Of a stretch of 40,682 nucleotides of DNA, positions 1,840 through 12,270 are shown piece by piece. The position numbers and the translations under genes were made by a program. The stretch is taken from positions 1 through 40,682 of the forward strand of contig CAOKNO010000019.1 in the NCBI GenBank assembly GCA_948470065.1, in the 5' to 3' direction. The notes beneath the pieces were generated by a model, which saw only the letters and a program-made list of their open reading frames with translations, was not told the origin of the DNA and ran no database searches. This stretch comes from an uncultured Eubacterium sp. Its GTDB lineage: Bacteria; Bacillota; Clostridia; Lachnospirales; Lachnospiraceae. The number at the start of each line of letters is the position of its first letter. The first letter of the stretch is position 1.

Positions 1840-3336
1840 TTATAAATCTTCCAAGTCAATGACTTCAAATCCATCTTGTTCTTCTTGTTTTGGAGAACCC
1901 TGCTTGTGTCCCTTGAAACCGTCGTCTTCCCATCCGTCTTCCACATATCCCTGGCTCTTCCGTTCCCAGTCTTCCTCAGACACATCCATTCCATCCTGAT
2001 CCCAGTCATCCTCCCGGGAGTTACGCTTCCCGTGTTTTAATTCTGTACCGTCGCTGGAATCGTTCGATTTCCAGTTTTGCCCTTCTGTTATCTCTACCTC
2101 ATCCAAAGGATGATATCCGTAATCCCATTCTTCCTCCATCTCACGCCTTTGCCGTAAGATTAAATTTACAATTACAACCACCAAAACGACAATCAAAAAC
2201 AGCATTATCGCCGTTATCTTCCGAGAAGTATCTTTCGCTTGGTTGTACTGCTCTTCCAAATCCTTATATGCTTTCTGTAGCCCTTGCATCTCTACGCTGG
2301 CCTCCCCTTGCTGGCTCCCAGGCTCTTCGGATCCCTTAAGATCAGCGTCATCTGCTACCGGCGTATCCTTTTCCTTTTGGTAACGCTGGTAAGTCCCGTC
2401 CTCCGCATCGTACTGATACCACCCCAGATTCCCGGAACTGCTGGCTGCATACACCAAAGAAAAGCCTTCTCCTAAGCTGCCTCCCGTAAACATCGGCACA
2501 TCCTCATACCCATCCACGGCTGTAGCCGCCTGGCTGAACGCTTCCGAAAGCCCTGTATCTGCCGGGGGATCCAACAAAATAAGATACCGCTCCCCCAATG
2601 CCACCATGCGGAAGGAAGACAACCGCCCGCTTGCTTCATCATAGACTGCAAGGGTATTTTTGACATCCTTACTTGGCGTGGTAAGGTAAACCAGCTTCAG
2701 CGACGGCTGTTTGTCAAACTGGAGCCCTTCCACCTGCTGTCCCTTGCAGGTTATGGATACCACAGAGAAATCCTGTGGGATACGGTCTGCAGGCACAGCG
2801 GCAGCCAGATTGAACGGATGCCCGCCCAGGTTAATCCCATCTGGATCCCCTTGCTGCTCCTGACCTTCCCCAGAAGGCTGCGCAGGCTGCCCTTCCTCAG
2901 ACGGCTGGCTATCCGGCGCGTCGGCTGGCGCCCCGGCGCCTTCTCCTTTCGTCACTTCGATTTTATACGTAACAGGCGTGCCGTTCTCTGCCTTTACCAG
3001 GATGCTAATCGTATTCTGCCCCTCCTGCAAATCTGTATTCCCTGTAATAGATACAATTTCCGCCGCCTCATGGGACGTCTTAGCGTCTACTTCGATACTT
3101 GAAACATCCGCCCCTACAGAAGCTGTATAATTGGTAACGGAATATTGAAATGCGGGGGATAAGGCGCCTGGGGAAATCGACAATGCAGAAAGGCTGTTAT
3201 CCCCAGACTTTACCTCCTGCCCCTCTGCCTGATCCTGCCCTTCCGCTTCCGTTGCCTGTATTGGGACAGGCATGACACATCCAATCAGCAGCATAAGCGC
3301 TACCATTATTCCTGTAAACTGTTTTGTTTTTTTCAT
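1840..3336 (-). CDS. Membrane-anchored surface protein with cadherin-like beta-sandwich domain
   Basis: About 498 aa counted from the ATG at 3336. A signal peptide fills residues 1-28 (KKTK, then a hydrophobic run ending LLIGC; the LIGC could be a lipobox). Residues 48-130 match the cadherin-like beta-sandwich (Cadherin_like / PF12733) pattern: LSALSISPGALSPAF opening, YTASVG centre, TYKIEVTK close. A P/Q/E-rich linker (131-175) and an unassigned extracellular domain (176-320) follow. A short coiled region comes next, then one strong transmembrane helix near 383-405, and a cytoplasmic tail of about 90 residues rich in Asp, Glu and Trp. The likely topology is outside-in with an acidic cytosolic tail. 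The start is uncertain: ATG codons at 3378, 3348 and 3336 are all in frame; AGGAG lies about 12 bases before the 3336 ATG, which begins the obvious signal peptide. Function unknown; cell-wall or sugar binding is only an inference. Confidence 0.75.
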   Translation of the reverse strand: MKKTKQFTGIMVALMLLIGCVMPVPIQATEAEGQDQAEGQEVKSGDNSLSALSISPGALSPAFQYSVTNYTASVGADVSSIEVDAKTSHEAAEIVSITGNTDLQEGQNTISILVKAENGTPVTYKIEVTKGEGAGAPADAPDSQPSEEGQPAQPSGEGQEQQGDPDGINLGGHPFNLAAAVPADRIPQDFSVVSITCKGQQVEGLQFDKQPSLKLVYLTTPSKDVKNTLAVYDEASGRLSSFRMVALGERYLILLDPPADTGLSEAFSQAATAVDGYEDVPMFTGGSLGEGFSLVYAASSSGNLGWYQYDAEDGTYQRYQKEKDTPVADDADLKGSEEPGSQQGEASVEMQGLQKAYKDLEEQYNQAKDTSRKITAIMLFLIVVLVVVIVNLILRQRREMEEEWDYGYHPLDEVEITEGQNWKSNDSSDGTELKHGKRNSREDDWDQDGMDVSEEDWERKSQGYVEDGWEDDGFKGHKQGSPKQEEQDGFEVIDLEDL

Positions 3337-3461
3337 GTCCTCTTTCATCTCCTGTTTCTTACAAAGGCCGCTGCCCATTCTACTGCCATCAGCACACGGT
3401 TTTTATCTGCTGCTGAATAGTTCCATTATAATTTTCCCACTCCCTGATTGTCAAGTGTAAC

Positions 3462-4646: not shown

Positions 4647-6194
4647 CTATTTAGGGACGTTTAATTTGTGATGGCACGCTACAAAATGCCCAGGCGTCAC
4701 TTCTTCAAACTTCGGTTCCACCTCTTTGCAGATTTCGGTGCAATGCTGGCACCTGGTGTTGAATTTGCATCCTCTGGGCGGCTTGATCGGGCTTGGGATA
4801 TCGCCTTCCAGCACAATCGCCTCTTTCTTATGATCCATATCTGTCGTCGGGATCGCCGAAAGCAGCGCCTCTGTATAAGGATGGTACGGGCGTTCAAACA
4901 GCTCCGCCGTTTCGCACAGTTCCACCATATTCCCCAAATACATAACGCCAATGCGGTCGCTGATGTATTTAATCACGCTTAAGTCGTGGGAAATAAACAG
5001 ATACGTCAGGTGATTCTGTTCCTTCAAATCCAGCAGCAGGTTAATGATCTGGGACTGGATGGAAACATCCAGCGCAGACACCGCCTCATCACAGACCACA
5101 AATTTCGGGTTTACGGCAAGCGAACGCGCAATGCCGATACGCTGTCTTTGCCCGCCGGAAAACTGATGGGGGTAGCGGTGGATAAAATAAGAAGCAAGGC
5201 CGCATTTTTCCATGACTTCCATAATATAATCCTGCATCTTCCCATCGCCCTTTTTAAACAAATGGTGCGCCAAAAGCCCTTCCCCGATAATCTGCCCTAC
5301 CGTCATCCTGGGATTGAGGGAAGAGTACGGATCTTGGAAAATCAACTGTAGATCGCGCCTTAAAAAACGCATCTCCACATCTGTCAGGTTCGCTAAATTG
5401 ATGCCGCTATCCATATAAGACTCATACAGCCCAAAGTCTTTCTTCGCTTTATTCTGTTTCTTAAATTCCTGGATCCTCGCAGCTTCCGCCTGCATCTGCT
5501 TCTCTTCCTGCGCAACCTGGGACTGAAGCTGTTTTATCTTATCCTCCGTCGCCTGTACGGCACGCTGGATTTCGCTTTCGCCCTTCCCCTTTTCTTTCAT
5601 TGCAGATCGTTTGTTGGATACCTCTGCACGCAACGTCGTAATCTGATCGTTGTATTTCCTCCGGTTCAGGGTAGCATTGTACTCCTTGACATAGACCTGG
5701 GAAATCTCCTTTAGATCATCCGCAACATACAGGCCGCCAATCAAGGCCGTAATGTCCAAAAGTTCGTTCCTTGCAAGCGTTTCCGCCTCATTTAATTTCT
5801 GAAGCTCTATATTCTTAGCTGTCCCTTCCGGCATTTTCTCCCATTCGGCACGCAGCTTCGCCGCCCGTTCCCGGGCTTCCTCACATTTGCGCTTTTTCTC
5901 CGGCAGGTTGTTGAAAATATCAGACACGTATTTCGGGGCAAGTTCCTCCACACTACGTCCATAGTAAATGGAACGGCCTGCCGTTTGGCGGTAAAGCTGT
6001 AGCAAGGTACGCCCGAACGTGGATTTGCCGCAACCGCTCTCCCCTACCAGCCCAAATGTTTCCCCTTCGTAAATATCCAGGGAGATACCATCATTGGCTT
6101 TTACAAATAACTGCTCTTTACCAATCTGCTTTTTTCCAACCGGGAAATACTGTTTTAAATCTGTTATGTGTAGTAAAACCTTTTTCTCACTCAT
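4647..6194 (-). CDS. oppF: Oligopeptide ABC transporter ATP-binding protein OppF with coiled-coil insertion
   Basis: 515 aa against about 310-330 usual for the family. Walker A GESGCGKST is at 51-59, Q-loop Q287 in LIFQDPYSSLNP, signature FSGGQRQR at 345-352, Walker B FVVCDE at 365-370 and H-loop H403. The C-terminal oligopeptide-type extension has C476, C482, C485 and C489; such cysteines bind an iron-sulfur cluster in some Opp/Dpp ATPases. Between Walker A and the Q-loop, residues about 85-270 are an extra charged, helical, coiled-coil segment rich in E, K, Q and A, which the family lacks. All ATPase motifs are intact, so the protein is probably functional, and the insertion would protrude from the nucleotide-binding domain. 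It starts 2 bp after the oppD stop. It should pair with OppD to power peptide uptake. Confidence 0.93.
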   Translation of the reverse strand: MSEKKVLLHITDLKQYFPVGKKQIGKEQLFVKANDGISLDIYEGETFGLVGESGCGKSTFGRTLLQLYRQTAGRSIYYGRSVEELAPKYVSDIFNNLPEKKRKCEEARERAAKLRAEWEKMPEGTAKNIELQKLNEAETLARNELLDITALIGGLYVADDLKEISQVYVKEYNATLNRRKYNDQITTLRAEVSNKRSAMKEKGKGESEIQRAVQATEDKIKQLQSQVAQEEKQMQAEAARIQEFKKQNKAKKDFGLYESYMDSGINLANLTDVEMRFLRRDLQLIFQDPYSSLNPRMTVGQIIGEGLLAHHLFKKGDGKMQDYIMEVMEKCGLASYFIHRYPHQFSGGQRQRIGIARSLAVNPKFVVCDEAVSALDVSIQSQIINLLLDLKEQNHLTYLFISHDLSVIKYISDRIGVMYLGNMVELCETAELFERPYHPYTEALLSAIPTTDMDHKKEAIVLEGDIPSPIKPPRGCKFNTRCQHCTEICKEVEPKFEEVTPGHFVACHHKLNVPK

Positions 6195-6196
6195 GA

Positions 6197-7177
6197 TTAC
6201 CGTTCCCCTTTCTTTGGATAAAAGCAGCGTACCCTATGCCCCGGTTCCACCTGAGCAAGTTCCGGTTCCTGTTCCCGGCACTTATCCGTAGCATATTTAC
6301 ACCTGGGCGCAAACTTACAGCCCTTTGGCAGATCCAAAGGATGCGGCACCGCGCCTGGGATTGCCTCTAACCGGATCCCGGCTGGCGTATCCAGCCTTGG
6401 GATCGAGAACAGAAGGCCTTCTGTGTAAGGATGCAGGAACTGGTTCTCACCAAATATCTGCCTGACTGGAGCCATCTCGACTACCTGCCCGCAGTACATG
6501 ACAGCCACGTCGTCCGCCATTTCATTGATAACCCCAAGGTCATGGGTAATAAACAAAATCGCCGTCCCCTTTTCCTTCTTCAATTCGTTCATCAGCTTCA
6601 GGATCTGCGCCTGGATCGTTACGTCAAGCGCCGTCGTCGGCTCGTCCGCAATCAGAAGCTTTGGCTGGCATGCAAGCGCCATCGCAATCATTACACGCTG
6701 GCGCATCCCGCCGGACAACTGGTGCGGATACTGCTTTGCTACTGCCTCGGGATTGGGGATACGGACATCCTTAAGCATCTCCACCACCTTTTGGGCAGCT
6801 TCCTTCTTACTCATATTCTGATGGATTAAAAACGGCTCGCTTACCTGTCGTTCAATCGTAAAAATCGGGTTCAGGCTCGTCATCGGTTCCTGGAAAATCA
6901 CAGAGATCTCATTCCCGCGGATCTTACACATATCCTTAATGGACACATCCGCAAGGTTCTTTCCATCGAAGATAATCTCACCGCTGTCAATATATCCGTT
7001 CCCATCCAATAATTTTAAGATACTCATGGCAGACACGGACTTCCCGCTCCCGCTTTCCCCGACAACCCCAAGGGTCTTCCCTGGCTCCACAGAATAGGAA
7101 ACACCGTTCACTGCCTTTACCGTACCTCGTTTCGTCTTAAAAAAGGTATGCAGATCATTTATCTCTAACAAAGCCAT
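6197..7177 (-). CDS. oppD: Oligopeptide ABC transporter ATP-binding protein OppD
   Basis: 326 aa, normal length. Walker A GESGSGKS is at 40-47, Q96 in VIFQEPMTSLNP, signature LSGGMRQR at 154-161, Walker B LLIADEP at 174-180 and H-loop H212. The C-terminal domain has C287, C293, C300 and C318, the cysteine pattern of the oligopeptide ATPase family. AGGAGG lies 8 bases before the ATG and overlaps the end of oppC, so translation is coupled. It forms a heterodimer with OppF on the cytosolic face of the OppB/OppC channel. Unlike OppF it has no insertion. Confidence 0.96.
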   Translation of the reverse strand: MALLEINDLHTFFKTKRGTVKAVNGVSYSVEPGKTLGVVGESGSGKSVSAMSILKLLDGNGYIDSGEIIFDGKNLADVSIKDMCKIRGNEISVIFQEPMTSLNPIFTIERQVSEPFLIHQNMSKKEAAQKVVEMLKDVRIPNPEAVAKQYPHQLSGGMRQRVMIAMALACQPKLLIADEPTTALDVTIQAQILKLMNELKKEKGTAILFITHDLGVINEMADDVAVMYCGQVVEMAPVRQIFGENQFLHPYTEGLLFSIPRLDTPAGIRLEAIPGAVPHPLDLPKGCKFAPRCKYATDKCREQEPELAQVEPGHRVRCFYPKKGER

Positions 7178-7189
7178 TGTGTTTTCCTC

Positions 7190-9007
7190 CTAGCGTTCAT
7201 TTGATTTCGGGTCAATGGCGTCGCGCAGGCCATCGCCAACCATATTGATACAGATTACGCAGATACTCAGCATAACTGCCGGGAATACCCATCTCCACCA
7301 ATAATTCCTAATCACGACGGAATTAACGCATCCGTTCAGCATATTTCCCCACGTTGGGCGGGGCAGCTTCACGCCAAACCCTAAGAAGGACAAGCTGGAC
7401 TCTGTCAGCATACAGGATGCAAAATCCAGGGTAGCCGAAACTATGATAACGGAAATCACGTTCGGGATAATATGTTTAAATACTATTGCAGACCGTTTCA
7501 CACCCATTGCATTGGCGGCCGTTACAAATTCCTTCTCACGTTCCGCAAGCACCTGGGCACGTACCAGACGCGCCAGCGACGGCCAGCTTAGTACGCCGAG
7601 CACCATCATGATCAGTGCAATCCTGGCGTTTTCTGACAAGCTATTCCCAATAATTGACGTTAAAATCATCGCCATTGGCAAAAACGGAAGCGAAGATACA
7701 ATTTCTGTGATACGTTGCAGTACGATATCCACCCAGCCGCCGAAGAAACCAGAAATCCCGCCGATGATAATCCCAATAATGGTAGAGATCACGACAGAAA
7801 TCGCGCCAATCGTCATGGTCATGCGCCCGCCGTTCAAAAGCCTTGCAAATACATCCCTGCCCAGCTCGTCGCTGCCCAGCCAATAGCCCTTCAGCCCCCA
7901 GGTCACGGTCTTGCCCGATCCAGTAATTGCATAATTCTGGTAAGAACCGCTGTAAAGCGCCTTGACGTCCTTGGCGTCTGACGGCACATCGATCTGATGC
8001 TTTCCATTCTCACCCCAGGCATAGACTGTCCCCTTATCTGTCAATACGGTAAAATAATTCCTGCCAGCAGCAATAGAAGCGACATTCCCATCAATCTTTG
8101 GCACATCCATCACTTTCCCACGCTTGCCCCAGACGCGCAGGGAACCGTCCTCTAACAGCACAAGGGCATTGTCTGATGTCGTCGCCATATCCACAACCGT
8201 GCCAAGATCCTGCGGGATCGCATCAATATCCGATAACTGCCCGCCCATATGGACTGCCTCGCCGCTTTTTGTCACCGCCATAAGCGTCGTATTCGCCACA
8301 GAGATCTTGTCGATCTTGCCGTTGCCTTTCTTCCTGGTCACACGGATATCGTTCAGGTTCTCATTGCCCCAATATAGGATTTCCCCGCCTTCCGTCAAAG
8401 CATATGATACCTGGTAGCCCGCTGCTATCTGCTTGATTTTCTTACGCTTCATGCCGCTTGGGACCTTTGTCTGGCTCATACGGTTGCTGCCCCAGCAGAT
8501 AATCTCCCCGTCCGCATTTAACGCCATCACATGGTCAAATCCAGCTGAAACGGCGACGACTTCCCCCAATTCCTTCTTGGAAGGGATATCCTTTTTGATA
8601 TCAATCTTATTGCTGATCTTCGTATGCCCCCATACATAGACTTTCCCATTGTTATCTACGCCTACGCTGAACGTAGAGCCTGCGGAAATCATCCTTACAT
8701 TCCCTTCTAGCCCCTTTGGGATTTTCATCATATCCATACCCGGCGCAACATTGATCTGCGTTTCTTCTTTTTCACTCAATTGGATCGGATAAAAGAGGGG
8801 CCCTATCAGAACCACCAAAAATATCACGAGGAAGACAATAAGACCGCCGATAGACAGCTTATTCCCTACAAAATTCTTTACAATCGTGCGTAAGGGGCTT
8901 TGGATCGCCTCTTCCTGCATTACATCCAATTCTTCCTTCCTGCTGCCAAACAGACGTTTCATAAGAGAAAAAGAAGGTTTCTTTCCATTATTTTTTTCTT
9001 TCTGCAT
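7190..9007 (-). CDS. oppC: Oligopeptide ABC transporter permease OppC with a seven-repeat RCC1-like beta-propeller insertion
   Basis: 605 aa, about twice the usual 300. Residues 1-50 are a cytosolic N-terminus and 51-75 form TM1. Residues about 102-373 are seven consecutive RCC1-type repeats. Their cores are ISAGSTFSVGVDNNGKVYVWG, VSAGFDHVMALNADGEIICWG, IAAGYQVSYALTEGGEILYWG, ISVANTTLMAV-KSGEAVHMGG, MATTSDNALVLLEDGSLRVWG, IAAGRNYFTVLTDKGTVYAWG and LYSGSYQNYAITGSGKTVTWG. The normal permease then resumes with WLGSDELGRDVF, TM2-TM6 and the EAA coupling loop (AANAMGVKRSAIVFKHIIPN, about 497-516). The insertion is therefore in the first extracytoplasmic loop, exactly where a classical OppC has only a short segment. 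Seven repeats make a closed propeller. Frame and motifs are intact on both sides. AGGAGG precedes the ATG by 8 bases. A role in docking OppA or choosing substrates is inference. Confidence 0.94.
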   Translation of the reverse strand: MQKEKNNGKKPSFSLMKRLFGSRKEELDVMQEEAIQSPLRTIVKNFVGNKLSIGGLIVFLVIFLVVLIGPLFYPIQLSEKEETQINVAPGMDMMKIPKGLEGNVRMISAGSTFSVGVDNNGKVYVWGHTKISNKIDIKKDIPSKKELGEVVAVSAGFDHVMALNADGEIICWGSNRMSQTKVPSGMKRKKIKQIAAGYQVSYALTEGGEILYWGNENLNDIRVTRKKGNGKIDKISVANTTLMAVTKSGEAVHMGGQLSDIDAIPQDLGTVVDMATTSDNALVLLEDGSLRVWGKRGKVMDVPKIDGNVASIAAGRNYFTVLTDKGTVYAWGENGKHQIDVPSDAKDVKALYSGSYQNYAITGSGKTVTWGLKGYWLGSDELGRDVFARLLNGGRMTMTIGAISVVISTIIGIIIGGISGFFGGWVDIVLQRITEIVSSLPFLPMAMILTSIIGNSLSENARIALIMMVLGVLSWPSLARLVRAQVLAEREKEFVTAANAMGVKRSAIVFKHIIPNVISVIIVSATLDFASCMLTESSLSFLGFGVKLPRPTWGNMLNGCVNSVVIRNYWWRWVFPAVMLSICVICINMVGDGLRDAIDPKSNER

Positions 9008-9019
9008 TGTCTTTTCCTC

Positions 9020-10006
9020 CTATTTATCAATACGTACCCGCGGGTCTACAATTCCGTAGCTTAAATCTGTAACCAGGTTGCTGATTAACGTTATGACGCA
9101 GTAAAGCATTTGGATAGCCAAAGCCACGTCATAATCCTGATTCATCAACCCCTTATAGTACATCTGCCCGATCCCGTTCAGTAGGAAAATCTGCTCAATA
9201 ATAATGGAACCCATAAATACGCTCATAAACCAGCTAATAATCAAAGTTACAACAGACAGCAGGGCGTTCCTCCAGGCATGGGAGTAAATCACAACCTTTT
9301 CCCTCAGCCCCTTTGCCCTTGCCGTCCGGATATAATCCATGCGCAGCGCATCGATCATAGCCGCACGCACATACCGCGTCATCCCACCCAGCGACGCCAC
9401 AGTCATAACGATAACTGGAAGCGCCAGATAGTACATACGGTCTACGAACGCAGCTATCCCAGTCCCCTGGAAGTTCGGGGAATTCATGCCGTTGATTGGG
9501 AACCAGCCCAACTGCACGGAAAAGAAATAAATCAACGCCAGGCCGATAATATAAATCGGTATGCTATACCCAACGATCGTCAATACCTGGACCACATTAT
9601 CAAACTTGGAAAATTTCTTTACCGCACAGAAAATCCCCAATGGTATGGTAATCGCCAGCGCCACTACCGTGGCGAACAGATTGATGATCATCGTATTTTT
9701 CAATGGCTCGCCAACGACGTCAATCACATCTTTCTTATAAAATGTAGAATACCCCAGATCGCCCTGTAATAAATTCCCCATCCATTTCACATAACGCACA
9801 GGGATCGGATCGTCAAGCCCCAGCTTGTCCCTTGCCGCCTGGTAGCGGATCTGGAACTGCTCATCGGAAACCTTCCCCCTCAGATTCTGCACCTGGTTCA
9901 GAGCACGGTCGCCAGGCGTATTATTAAATAAGATAAACATGATAATTGATACCACAAAGAAAACCCCTACCATGTATACTAGTCTTTTTCCCACATACTT
10001 TAACAT
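9020..10006 (-). CDS. oppB: Oligopeptide ABC transporter permease OppB
   Basis: 328 aa, usual length. TM1 at 9-28 is followed by the OppB-type extracellular segment (PGDRA, LGLDDPIPVRYVKW, GDLGYS), then five more helices. The EAA coupling motif DYIRTARAKGLREKVVIYSH is at about 224-243. The C-terminus YGIVDPRVR is typical of this permease subfamily. The ribosome binding site is weak (GGTTGGACA before ATG), in contrast with the strong sites of its neighbours. oppC follows 12 bp after its stop. It forms the membrane channel with OppC. A 302-bp gap separates it from oppA. Confidence 0.95.
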   Translation of the reverse strand: MLKYVGKRLVYMVGVFFVVSIIMFILFNNTPGDRALNQVQNLRGKVSDEQFQIRYQAARDKLGLDDPIPVRYVKWMGNLLQGDLGYSTFYKKDVIDVVGEPLKNTMIINLFATVVALAITIPLGIFCAVKKFSKFDNVVQVLTIVGYSIPIYIIGLALIYFFSVQLGWFPINGMNSPNFQGTGIAAFVDRMYYLALPVIVMTVASLGGMTRYVRAAMIDALRMDYIRTARAKGLREKVVIYSHAWRNALLSVVTLIISWFMSVFMGSIIIEQIFLLNGIGQMYYKGLMNQDYDVALAIQMLYCVITLISNLVTDLSYGIVDPRVRIDK

Positions 10007-10308: not shown

Positions 10309-12270
10309 TTATTCAATGTTTGCATAAAGGATAGCAACAGAAACTTCCCAGTTATACCCATCTTCTTCGTAGTCATGGAGCCTTGTCGTATAGAAGTCAT
10401 GGTAATCATTGGAATACAGTGGGATTTCTGGCATTAAGTCATTCCATTTCTGCATGAATTTTACCCAGTTTGCGCCGTATGCCTCGTCGTCGCCTTCTTC
10501 CGTCTGGTTCATGGCAACGCACAAATCATAAAGTTCTGTGCCTTCTGGGTCTTTCAGGCAGTTGATGTTAGAATCAGAGCCTGGCTCGTACATATATGCA
10601 ACATCATAAGGATTGCCGAAGCCTGTTGCTAAGTTGAACATCTGGTACGGGTTTTCTTCACTTGGGTCATAGTAGTACTGTAACAATTCCGTAAAGGTAA
10701 CTACGTTCTGGTTGATCTGCATCCCTGCAGCCGTAAGATCCGGGTTCTGCTGTAAGGAAGTAACCAAAAGGTCAGATACGGAGTTTTCTTCGGAAGAACA
10801 CCATTCAATCACCAGCGGCATCATGCTGCCATCTTCCAGCTTCTTGTAACGGATCCCTTCCCCAGAGTAATCGGAACCGTCTTCATTGTATACCCAGCCG
10901 CCTTCTTCAAGAACCTGTACGGCTGTTTCCGGGCTGTAAGCATAAGAATTTAATGCATCCACTTCGTCAGCATGTTCATTTACCATCCACTGGGACGCGC
11001 CATAAGGCCCGTTTACTACGATACCATGCCCGCCGGTAAAGGTCTGTGCAAATGCATTCCGGTCAAGCAGGTAAGCGATTGCCTGGCGCACTTCCTTGAA
11101 CTGGGTTGGGCCCTGGTTACATTTGAAGTTCAGCATACCATATCCGGCACGTGGGAAGTTACAGTAATCGTATCCGCCTTCGTCTACTAAATCAAGCCCT
11201 GCTTCGATATCCTTGCCGTCTGCGCACTGCAGCAGAAGATCGATAGAACCTGTCTTAAGCTGATCCATCATCGTATCCTGCGGCACATATTTGTAGATAA
11301 TCGTTTCAATGTTTGCCGTCTGGCCTTCAAAGTTGCCGACAAACTCTGTGTTTTTCTTTATCGTATAAGAATATGCGTTCGTATCATAAGATTCAAATAC
11401 GTACGGGCCGCTGCATACCGACGGGTTGTAACGGAACTCATTTACCTTATCGCTGATATATTCAGGAGTAAAGTTATCTGATAATTTTGCACCGTTCTCT
11501 GTTTCTTCAACCGTAACGTCTTCCGGCACCCAGCCCTTGATATATTCCGGCGTTGAGGATACCAAAGCCAGTCCATAATAATACGGCAGGTACTGCTTAT
11601 CAATGGTTACGGAGAACGTCATATCATCAATCAGGTGTACGCCTTCAAACGTAGCGCTTTCCCCAGCGGAATATGCATCATAGCCTTTTGCATACCTGCA
11701 GACGCTTGCAGATGCTTCAGACGCCTCTAAATCTACCAGCATTGTCTTGCTGCCCCAGAACAGGTACGGGAATACATAATCCTTAGCCGTAACGGCTTCG
11801 CCGTTACTGAACTTTAATCCATCCTTAATCTTGATAGTATACGTCTTGCTTCCATCTTCATTTTCTGCTTCATCAAGGGTATCTACAACGGTTTCATTTA
11901 CCCCCCATTTCCCGTCCTGGTCTACGTATACGGTTTCCAGGCCAGTAATCATTTTATAAACATAATAGTCAGAAGCGGAGTTTGTCCAAAACGGAGTTAC
12001 ATCGCCGCTCGTTTCACTTTGGTCGCCAATGATGACCTGCTTGTTGCCATAGGTAACGTCCTCACCGTCGCCGTCTCCCTCGCTGCCATCCTCTTCGCCG
12101 CTGCCTTCATTTTCTTCATTCCCTGTTGCTTCTTCCTCGCTGCTATCATCCGATTGTTCCGTATTGTTGTTGGAAGAACCGTCTGTGTCGTCCCCTGTTT
12201 TGCCGCAGCCAGCAAGCATGCTGATAGACAACACGCTAACAAGGAACAATGAGAGTAATTTCTTTTTCAT
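10309..12270 (-). CDS. oppA: Oligopeptide ABC transporter substrate-binding lipoprotein OppA
   Basis: 653 aa, longer than the roughly 540 of enteric OppA. A lipoprotein signal peptide ends in lipobox LAGC, with the lipidated cysteine at residue 22. Residues 24-72 are a low-complexity acidic spacer (S, N, E, D, G repeats). The rest is a family 5 solute-binding protein: GLKFSNGEAVTAKDY near 150 and an oligopeptide-binding core with VRQAIAYLLDRNAFAQTF near 400. The strong site AAAGGAGGAG precedes ATG. It is the first gene of the operon, with its own promoter, and delivers peptides to OppB/OppC. The acidic tether may matter because OppC carries a large extracellular propeller. Confidence 0.94.
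   Translation of the reverse strand: MKKKLLSLFLVSVLSISMLAGCGKTGDDTDGSSNNNTEQSDDSSEEEATGNEENEGSGEEDGSEGDGDGEDVTYGNKQVIIGDQSETSGDVTPFWTNSASDYYVYKMITGLETVYVDQDGKWGVNETVVDTLDEAENEDGSKTYTIKIKDGLKFSNGEAVTAKDYVFPYLFWGSKTMLVDLEASEASASVCRYAKGYDAYSAGESATFEGVHLIDDMTFSVTIDKQYLPYYYGLALVSSTPEYIKGWVPEDVTVEETENGAKLSDNFTPEYISDKVNEFRYNPSVCSGPYVFESYDTNAYSYTIKKNTEFVGNFEGQTANIETIIYKYVPQDTMMDQLKTGSIDLLLQCADGKDIEAGLDLVDEGGYDYCNFPRAGYGMLNFKCNQGPTQFKEVRQAIAYLLDRNAFAQTFTGGHGIVVNGPYGASQWMVNEHADEVDALNSYAYSPETAVQVLEEGGWVYNEDGSDYSGEGIRYKKLEDGSMMPLVIEWCSSEENSVSDLLVTSLQQNPDLTAAGMQINQNVVTFTELLQYYYDPSEENPYQMFNLATGFGNPYDVAYMYEPGSDSNINCLKDPEGTELYDLCVAMNQTEEGDDEAYGANWVKFMQKWNDLMPEIPLYSNDYHDFYTTRLHDYEEDGYNWEVSVAILYANIE

Follow-up and report, generated by a model that had tools for sequence, protein, structure and literature searches.

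The opp operon of the window

The window analysed here, a stretch of 40,682 nucleotides from an uncultured Eubacterium sp., contains the gene row oppA, oppB, oppC, oppD and oppF with every gene on the minus strand. Judged from its parts, the operon is a peptide importer: next to oppC it has oppA, oppB, oppD and oppF, as expected of an OppC-type ABC importer. Gene oppA (10309..12270) was recognized with Pfam and encodes a peptide-binding lipoprotein (SBP_bac_5) in which an acidic linker follows the cysteine; its best solved relative is the peptide-binding OppA 9p48_A (6.8e-36). OppB (9020..10006; Pfam/NCBIfam) comprises 328 aa and is devoid of a large extracellular domain. Of the two ATPase genes, oppD (6197..7177) was identified with Pfam/NCBIfam and oppF (4647..6194) with Pfam and a structural model; OppF carries an insertion of about 150–190 aa that is modelled as long helices (residues 97–248). 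A 512-aa protein with a cadherin-like β-sandwich domain is encoded downstream of oppF (1840–3378, minus strand).

Gene oppC (7190..9007) encodes a permease of 605 aa into which a propeller of the RCC1/BLIP-II type is inserted, as revealed by open reading frame analysis, Pfam, alignment, AF2 and Foldseek. Its reading frame is unbroken, the ATG at position 9007 is preceded by a GGAGGA site, and the stop codon of oppB lies immediately upstream of the oppC start. The initial annotation had described an OppC permease with inserted repeats at exactly this place, and coordinates, length and the Pfam matches (OppC_N, BPD_transp_1 and RCC1_2) all agree with that description. It had also argued that the intact frame speaks against an assembly accident. 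This holds, since the frame is uninterrupted and the fusion recurs in isolates, namely Acetivibrio ethanolgignens ACET-33324, Soehngenia longivitae 1933P, Gemmiger sp. An120 and Merdimmobilis hominis An559, which rules out an artefact of assembly or annotation.

A propeller inserted into the first extracellular loop of OppC

When the 605-aa protein was searched against Pfam, OppC_N matched at residues 37–89 (1.1e-8; 35.3 bits) and BPD_transp_1 at residues 412–601 (1.5e-31; 110 bits), both above cut-off. They flank matches to RCC1_2 (1.4e-31; 107.9 bits with a cut-off of 22) and RCC1 (38.5 bits with a cut-off of 21.7), scores so far above the Pfam cut-offs that the repeats are well beyond chance. 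The whole-domain model WD40_RLD stayed below its cut-off on the same protein (122.9 vs. 150). Likewise, none of the NCBIfam OppC equivalogs exceeded its curated cut-off; Opp4C came nearest (314.6 vs. 350), and the others scored further below. By its sequence, this OppC represents a divergent, unnamed subfamily.

The insert occupies about residues 93–372, between TM1 and the conserved GSDELGRD segment. An alignment to E. coli OppC (8z21_B) stops at residue 79/80 of the latter and picks up again at residue 373 of the query, so the insertion added some 280 residues and removed little, if any, permease sequence. The piece of this alignment that precedes the insert is weak (6.5 bits), and the OppC_N match supports that side. 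A hydropathy scan detected six hydrophobic stretches in OppC and none within the insert, which therefore lies between TM1 and TM2, that is, in the first extracellular loop to which it had originally been assigned. This topology is derived from hydropathy, and the insert would be located outside the cell if the N-terminus is cytosolic. An internal N-terminus is the known topology of OppC proteins; residues 1–50 contain 11 K+R and 6 D+E. In the resulting layout, with all coordinates on the minus strand, a tether of residues 73–96 (8720..8791; defined by alignment) leads from TM1 to the propeller (residues 97–372; 7892..8719), and a second one of residues 371–380 (GLKGYWLGSD; 7868..7897; likewise defined by alignment) leads from there to the permease part (residues 373–605; 7193..7891), which contains BPD_transp_1 and was delimited with Pfam/NCBIfam, alignment and Foldseek.

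A closed propeller of seven repeats had been postulated from the letters of the sequence, and a structure prediction was named as the test that could refute it. The AF2 model, based on an alignment of 47 sequences, predicts such a propeller with a pLDDT of about 91 over residues 101–370 (pTM 0.72 for the whole protein): a closed ring of seven blades with three strands each, in which the A strands start at residues 104, 150, 191, 232, 271, 309 and 348. The five best PDB chains found with Foldseek are all BLIP-II (1jtd_B: E 4.2e-18, TM 0.85 over the target, 2.4 Å, 276 columns), and chains of UVR8 and RCC1 rank after them; the permease half matches E. coli OppC with a TM of 0.72. BLIP-II is also the best non-permease chain by sequence (1jtd_B, 1.9e-19; 3.3e-22 for residues 93–372 alone). 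The span initially given for the repeats was about 102–373; the full insert extends over about residues 93–372. The proposed AG...DG...WG pattern proved to be degenerate in blades 4 and 5, both of which lack AG, even though all seven blades are present.

Five of the six internal connectors between blades contain a conserved proline (residues 142, 183, 265, 303 and 342; 94–100% of the 47 sequences), the connector from blade 3 to blade 4 being the one without. Pro97, which is present in 47/47 sequences, supplies the matching proline of blade 7 from the N-terminal side. This probably closes the ring and brings its points of entry and exit near each other at blade 7.

Occurrence and origin of the fusion

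Among the best 80 of 129 relatives, which were kept for analysis, 58 loci contain the whole fusion, 21 match the permease only, and one (L095) is truncated where its contig ends. In genome samples drawn from the family, the class and the phylum, the fusion was present in 11 of 299, 17 of 391 and 14 of 398 genomes, respectively; the latter two samples overlap (in the genome of the window and G361) and together represent 13 family codes. Within the genus of the window it occurs in three of 25 genomes, the window's own included, and the operon is thus accessory. Lachnospiraceae, Oscillospiraceae and Tissierellia are among the named carriers. No sign of spread by plasmids was seen, as none of 3256 matching plasmid records has a place that covers 80% of the protein.

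A propeller profile built from our own alignment sorted the OppC matches into 127 ring-bearing proteins, 39 that carry another insert and 43 plain ones (duplicates included; L088, which has masked residues, was lost at this step). For a tree, rows with a full OppB were required (146 distinct), and removal of near-copies of over 93% left 111 rows, 58 with a ring and 53 others. All 58 ring rows fall on one side of a branch with an SH-aLRT value of 100 and no ring-less row lies inside; the tree is the product of a quick search (LG+G4, no bootstrap), with long branches among the plain rows and in one ring row. The first searches favoured fused proteins, and the search was therefore repeated with OppB as bait. 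It returned 29 matches, of which the 11 best (E 1.4e-79 or better, including that of the window) all adjoin a ring OppC, which is true of none of the remaining 18. OppB frames in the RCC1 operons range from 187 to 384 aa, with mechanically assigned starts and some broken frames included. The collection of OppC homologues suggested in the initial annotation thus turned an apparent oddity into a conserved trait of one Opp clade. In our sample the ring fusion has a single origin, and the ring has been retained since.

Another Opp clade contains inserts in the TM1–TM2 loop of OppC that are unrelated to the ring and about 170–380 aa long (L146–L165, e.g. L148:4851-6662); in these proteins, which belong to a clade different from that of the ring OppCs, the motif that follows the loop is found at 281–485. 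No Pfam match over cut-off was present within the insert of the five tested, and none of the 20 scored with the propeller profile, which rules out that they are degenerate propellers. A further kind of insert in the same loop was found in L099. Therefore, the loop has been enlarged more than once.

RCC1_2 repeats as such, leaving cell location aside, were detected in 109 of 291 class genomes, and many of them lie in long frames. An extreme case, possibly a giant surface protein, comes from genome G345 (contig C4, about 25205–81064), where numerous RCC1_2 repeats are encoded in one open frame of 29,380 codons. The genome of the window itself harbours a second RCC1 protein (L216:3201-5132, contig C36) of 643 aa which is not fused to a transporter and has a signal-like N-terminus, canonical repeats of about 50 aa and a Gly/Ser linker. 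RCC1-type proteins resembling the ring (27–31% identity) are also encoded by phages MF959998.1 (Marinobacter) and MF360958.1 (Salicola).

Constraint on ring and tethers

The tethers differ strikingly from the ring in their variability. In 84 of 86 distinct proteins the distance from residue 73 to Pro97 is 25 residues (26 and 28 in the other two), and that from Gly371 to Asp380 is 10 residues in 86/86, while the ring varies between 269 and 364 residues. Near-constant tethers on a ring of variable length indicate that the permease probably keeps the ring in one set position; the fixed tether length is the strongest structural clue that we have.

Conservation is lower in the propeller, with a mean pairwise identity of 47%, than in the permease, with 72% (1081 pairs). 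The propeller is under purifying selection: its dN/dS is 0.06–0.13 in four of six pairs, the other two being saturated and dS exceeding 1 in all but one pair. In that exception, L038/L039 (dS 0.77), dN/dS amounts to 0.111 in the propeller vs. 0.014 in the permease. Conservation of the A–B loops (weighted Jensen–Shannon scores, 47 rows) is 0.645–0.776 on the contiguous blades 6, 7, 1, 2 and 3 vs. 0.460 and 0.474 on blades 4 and 5; the loops were assigned to their face by strand order rather than coordinates. The conserved arc takes in blade 7, where the tethers attach, without being centred there. Blades 3 and 4 are opposite the tether and blade 3 is nevertheless conserved, so proximity to the membrane attachment does not by itself define the arc. 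Among the 86 proteins, some loop residues are kept less strictly: Asp158 in 69, Tyr198 in 64, Gln199 in 74, Arg316 in 62, Tyr356 in 60 (Phe in 24) and Tyr359 in 83. The histidines at positions 159 and 318 belong to the ordinary RCC1 consensus.

Companion genes of the ring

Wherever the sequence of a ring locus reaches 3.3 kb or more upstream of oppC, oppA is located upstream of oppB (80/80 loci, counting duplicates). A single cluster of flanking ORFs adjoins 23 of 57 loci, with the window among the 57 but not the 23, and with L038 and L088 left out; 22 of its 23 members contain HExxH. Four members were scanned and all exceeded NCBIfam cut-offs, one as PepF, one as M3_fam_3 and two as M3_not_pepF. 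Neighbours of the M3 oligopeptidase type, whose frequency was determined beside ring loci, fit peptide import.

Distance matrices of propeller and OppA yielded a partial correlation of 0.44 after removal of OppB, OppD and permease (66 loci, 0/2000 permutations; 0.42 with cubic terms), the values for the propeller with permease, OppD and OppB being 0.22, 0.12 and −0.05, respectively. In the 47 loci with a long OppF, however, the propeller correlates more strongly with the cytosolic OppF core (0.505; 0.426 cubic) than with OppA (0.337; 0.344 cubic). The value of 0.44 had initially suggested specific co-evolution of propeller and OppA, but with this control the signal is not specific to OppA. OppA does not possess a conserved long linker that could serve as a spacer round the ring: by a pattern-based estimate in 64 proteins, the linker measures from about 9 aa (L051) and 12 aa (L072) to about 60 aa in most of the longest, with three outliers of 95–182 aa. 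Owing to this variability no compensating spacer is visible, and the idea was abandoned.

The OppF insertion is common in ring operons. It is charged, follows Walker A and is placed between Walker A and the Q-loop; the model depicts it as four long helices (residues 97–248; pLDDT of ten-residue blocks 78–96), the remainder being a normal Opp/Dpp ATPase. An OppF of at least 440 aa occurs in 52 of 73 distinct sequences from ring operons vs. none of 30 from plain and none of 21 from other-insert operons. As an obligate partner of the ring, it was discarded because the association is only partial: a ring subclade (L063, L069, L071, L074, L080 and L081) lacks the insertion. The insertion may provide a contact for a cytosolic partner.

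Discussion

The propeller and the permease of this OppC each have known relatives. The permease part aligns throughout with OppC and DppC of E. coli (8z21_B, 8z1v_B; E 7e-54 to E. coli OppC) and OppC of M. tuberculosis (8j5q_C), in none of which, by contrast, an insert separates TM1 from the G[TS]DxxGRD segment. The ring resembles BLIP-II (1jtd_B, 3qi0_A), an extracellular, seven-bladed propeller of short RCC1-type repeats with three strands per blade (PMC6121496). Unlike the ring, with which it shares 29% identity, BLIP-II is a free inhibitor secreted by Streptomyces and has no membrane part. UVR8 and RCC1 have the same fold, and the GWRHT motif of UVR8 (PMC4501546) aligns with a conserved A–B loop of the ring; yet these proteins are eukaryotic, have longer repeats and are not membrane transporters.

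In the pneumococcal Ami system, AmiC corresponds to OppB and AmiD to OppC. Ami, too, is an Opp-type importer with a large extracellular domain on a permease. AmiC comprises 498 aa with extra domains at residues 31–278, which in an AlphaFold model wedge and clamp the binding protein, and the TM1–TM2 loop of AmiD is a coil of residues 64–99 that touches lobe 2 of the binding protein in the same model (PMC11192437). In the operon described here, by contrast, OppB is plain and the domain is borne by OppC and is an RCC1/BLIP-II propeller. A publication on an OppC with RCC1, or on an RCC1 repeat together with an ABC transporter permease, was not found in the literature searched, whose scope excluded most subscription journals and preprints; a description of this architecture, which the initial annotation had named as a ground for refutation, did not come to light within that scope. 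An Opp importer whose extracellular permease domain resides on a different subunit and has a different fold from the AmiC case is therefore new in this literature.

Fixed tethers, one-sided conservation and the AmiC/AmiD precedent together make docking of OppA the likeliest role of the ring. We tentatively propose, with somewhat less than even confidence, that the ring is a rigid docking or clamping platform for OppA which was inserted once into the TM1–TM2 loop of an ancestral OppC; both the identity of OppA as partner and the effect on docking are deduced rather than observed. The suggestion of the initial annotation that the ring sits where OppA docks is reasonable by analogy, given that the same loop of AmiD is modelled in contact with lobe 2 of the binding protein (PMC11192437); that the ring selects peptides, gates docking or binds a wall component, as the annotation also suggested, is more hypothetical. 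The ring would project outward from the permease at a set distance, and its conserved arc of A–B loops would hold the peptide-loaded lipoprotein OppA against the mouth formed by OppB and OppC, or steer it there. The peptide would then be handed over from OppA to the permease.

It seems unlikely that the propeller is itself a ligand-binding domain, capturing or filtering peptides, or a peptide signal, ahead of OppA or in its place and passing or gating them. Conserved aromatic and polar A–B loops (Y198, Q199, R316, Y356–Y359) could make a site near the axis, and a specificity domain would be expected to evolve faster than the permease, which the propeller does; but oppA is present in all ring loci with enough upstream sequence, and fixed tethers fit docking better than free capture. 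Moreover, RCC1 and BLIP-II, group members named in PMC9218822, are protein binders.

Similarly doubtful is the recruitment of some other partner at the surface, for example a wall polymer, a penicillin-binding protein or a peptidase that is secreted or bound to the wall, by which peptides would be freed beside the importer. BLIP-II, the nearest solved fold, is a secreted protein-binding propeller (PMC6121496 and PMC9218822) and binds a secreted enzyme with picomolar affinity (PMC6121496), and the wide occurrence of RCC1_2 repeats in the class would suit this idea as well. The loci themselves offer no such candidate: the only protein-coding flanking cluster in more than 10 of the 57 loci is that of the M3 oligopeptidases, and the next one, in 16 loci, consists of antisense frames. 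M3 peptidases of the neighbouring kind are cytosolic, which counts against a surface partner.

In view of the correlation between propeller and OppF core, it is conceivable but improbable that these operons represent a separate kind of importer whose outer and inner ends were remodelled jointly. The OppC propeller would then receive peptide or OppA, and the OppF insertion would act as a long coiled-coil lever inside, so that events at the outer receptor are coupled to a cytosolic partner or to the use of ATP. Equally improbable is that the ring is a passive spacer or shield without a specific partner: the unrelated inserts in the same loop of another clade and in L099 hint that bulk may matter, but the ring clade of the tree contains no ring-less row, 11/11 of the nearest OppB proteins adjoin a ring, and the ring itself shows purifying selection, with its conservation confined to one arc.

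The extracellular permease domain that we found described in peptide importers, that of AmiC, belongs to the OppB-type subunit; here it is the other subunit, OppC, that gained an unrelated and well understood protein-binding ring, and it did so in numerous bacteria of the gut and other anaerobes. Together with the linked OppF insertion, this sets the ring operons apart as a recognizable subtype. If the ring binds OppA, it would offer a natural handle for studying the selection and retention of a binding protein by its permease. Should its partner be a different one, peptide uptake in these bacteria would be linked to a surface partner that has not yet been sought.
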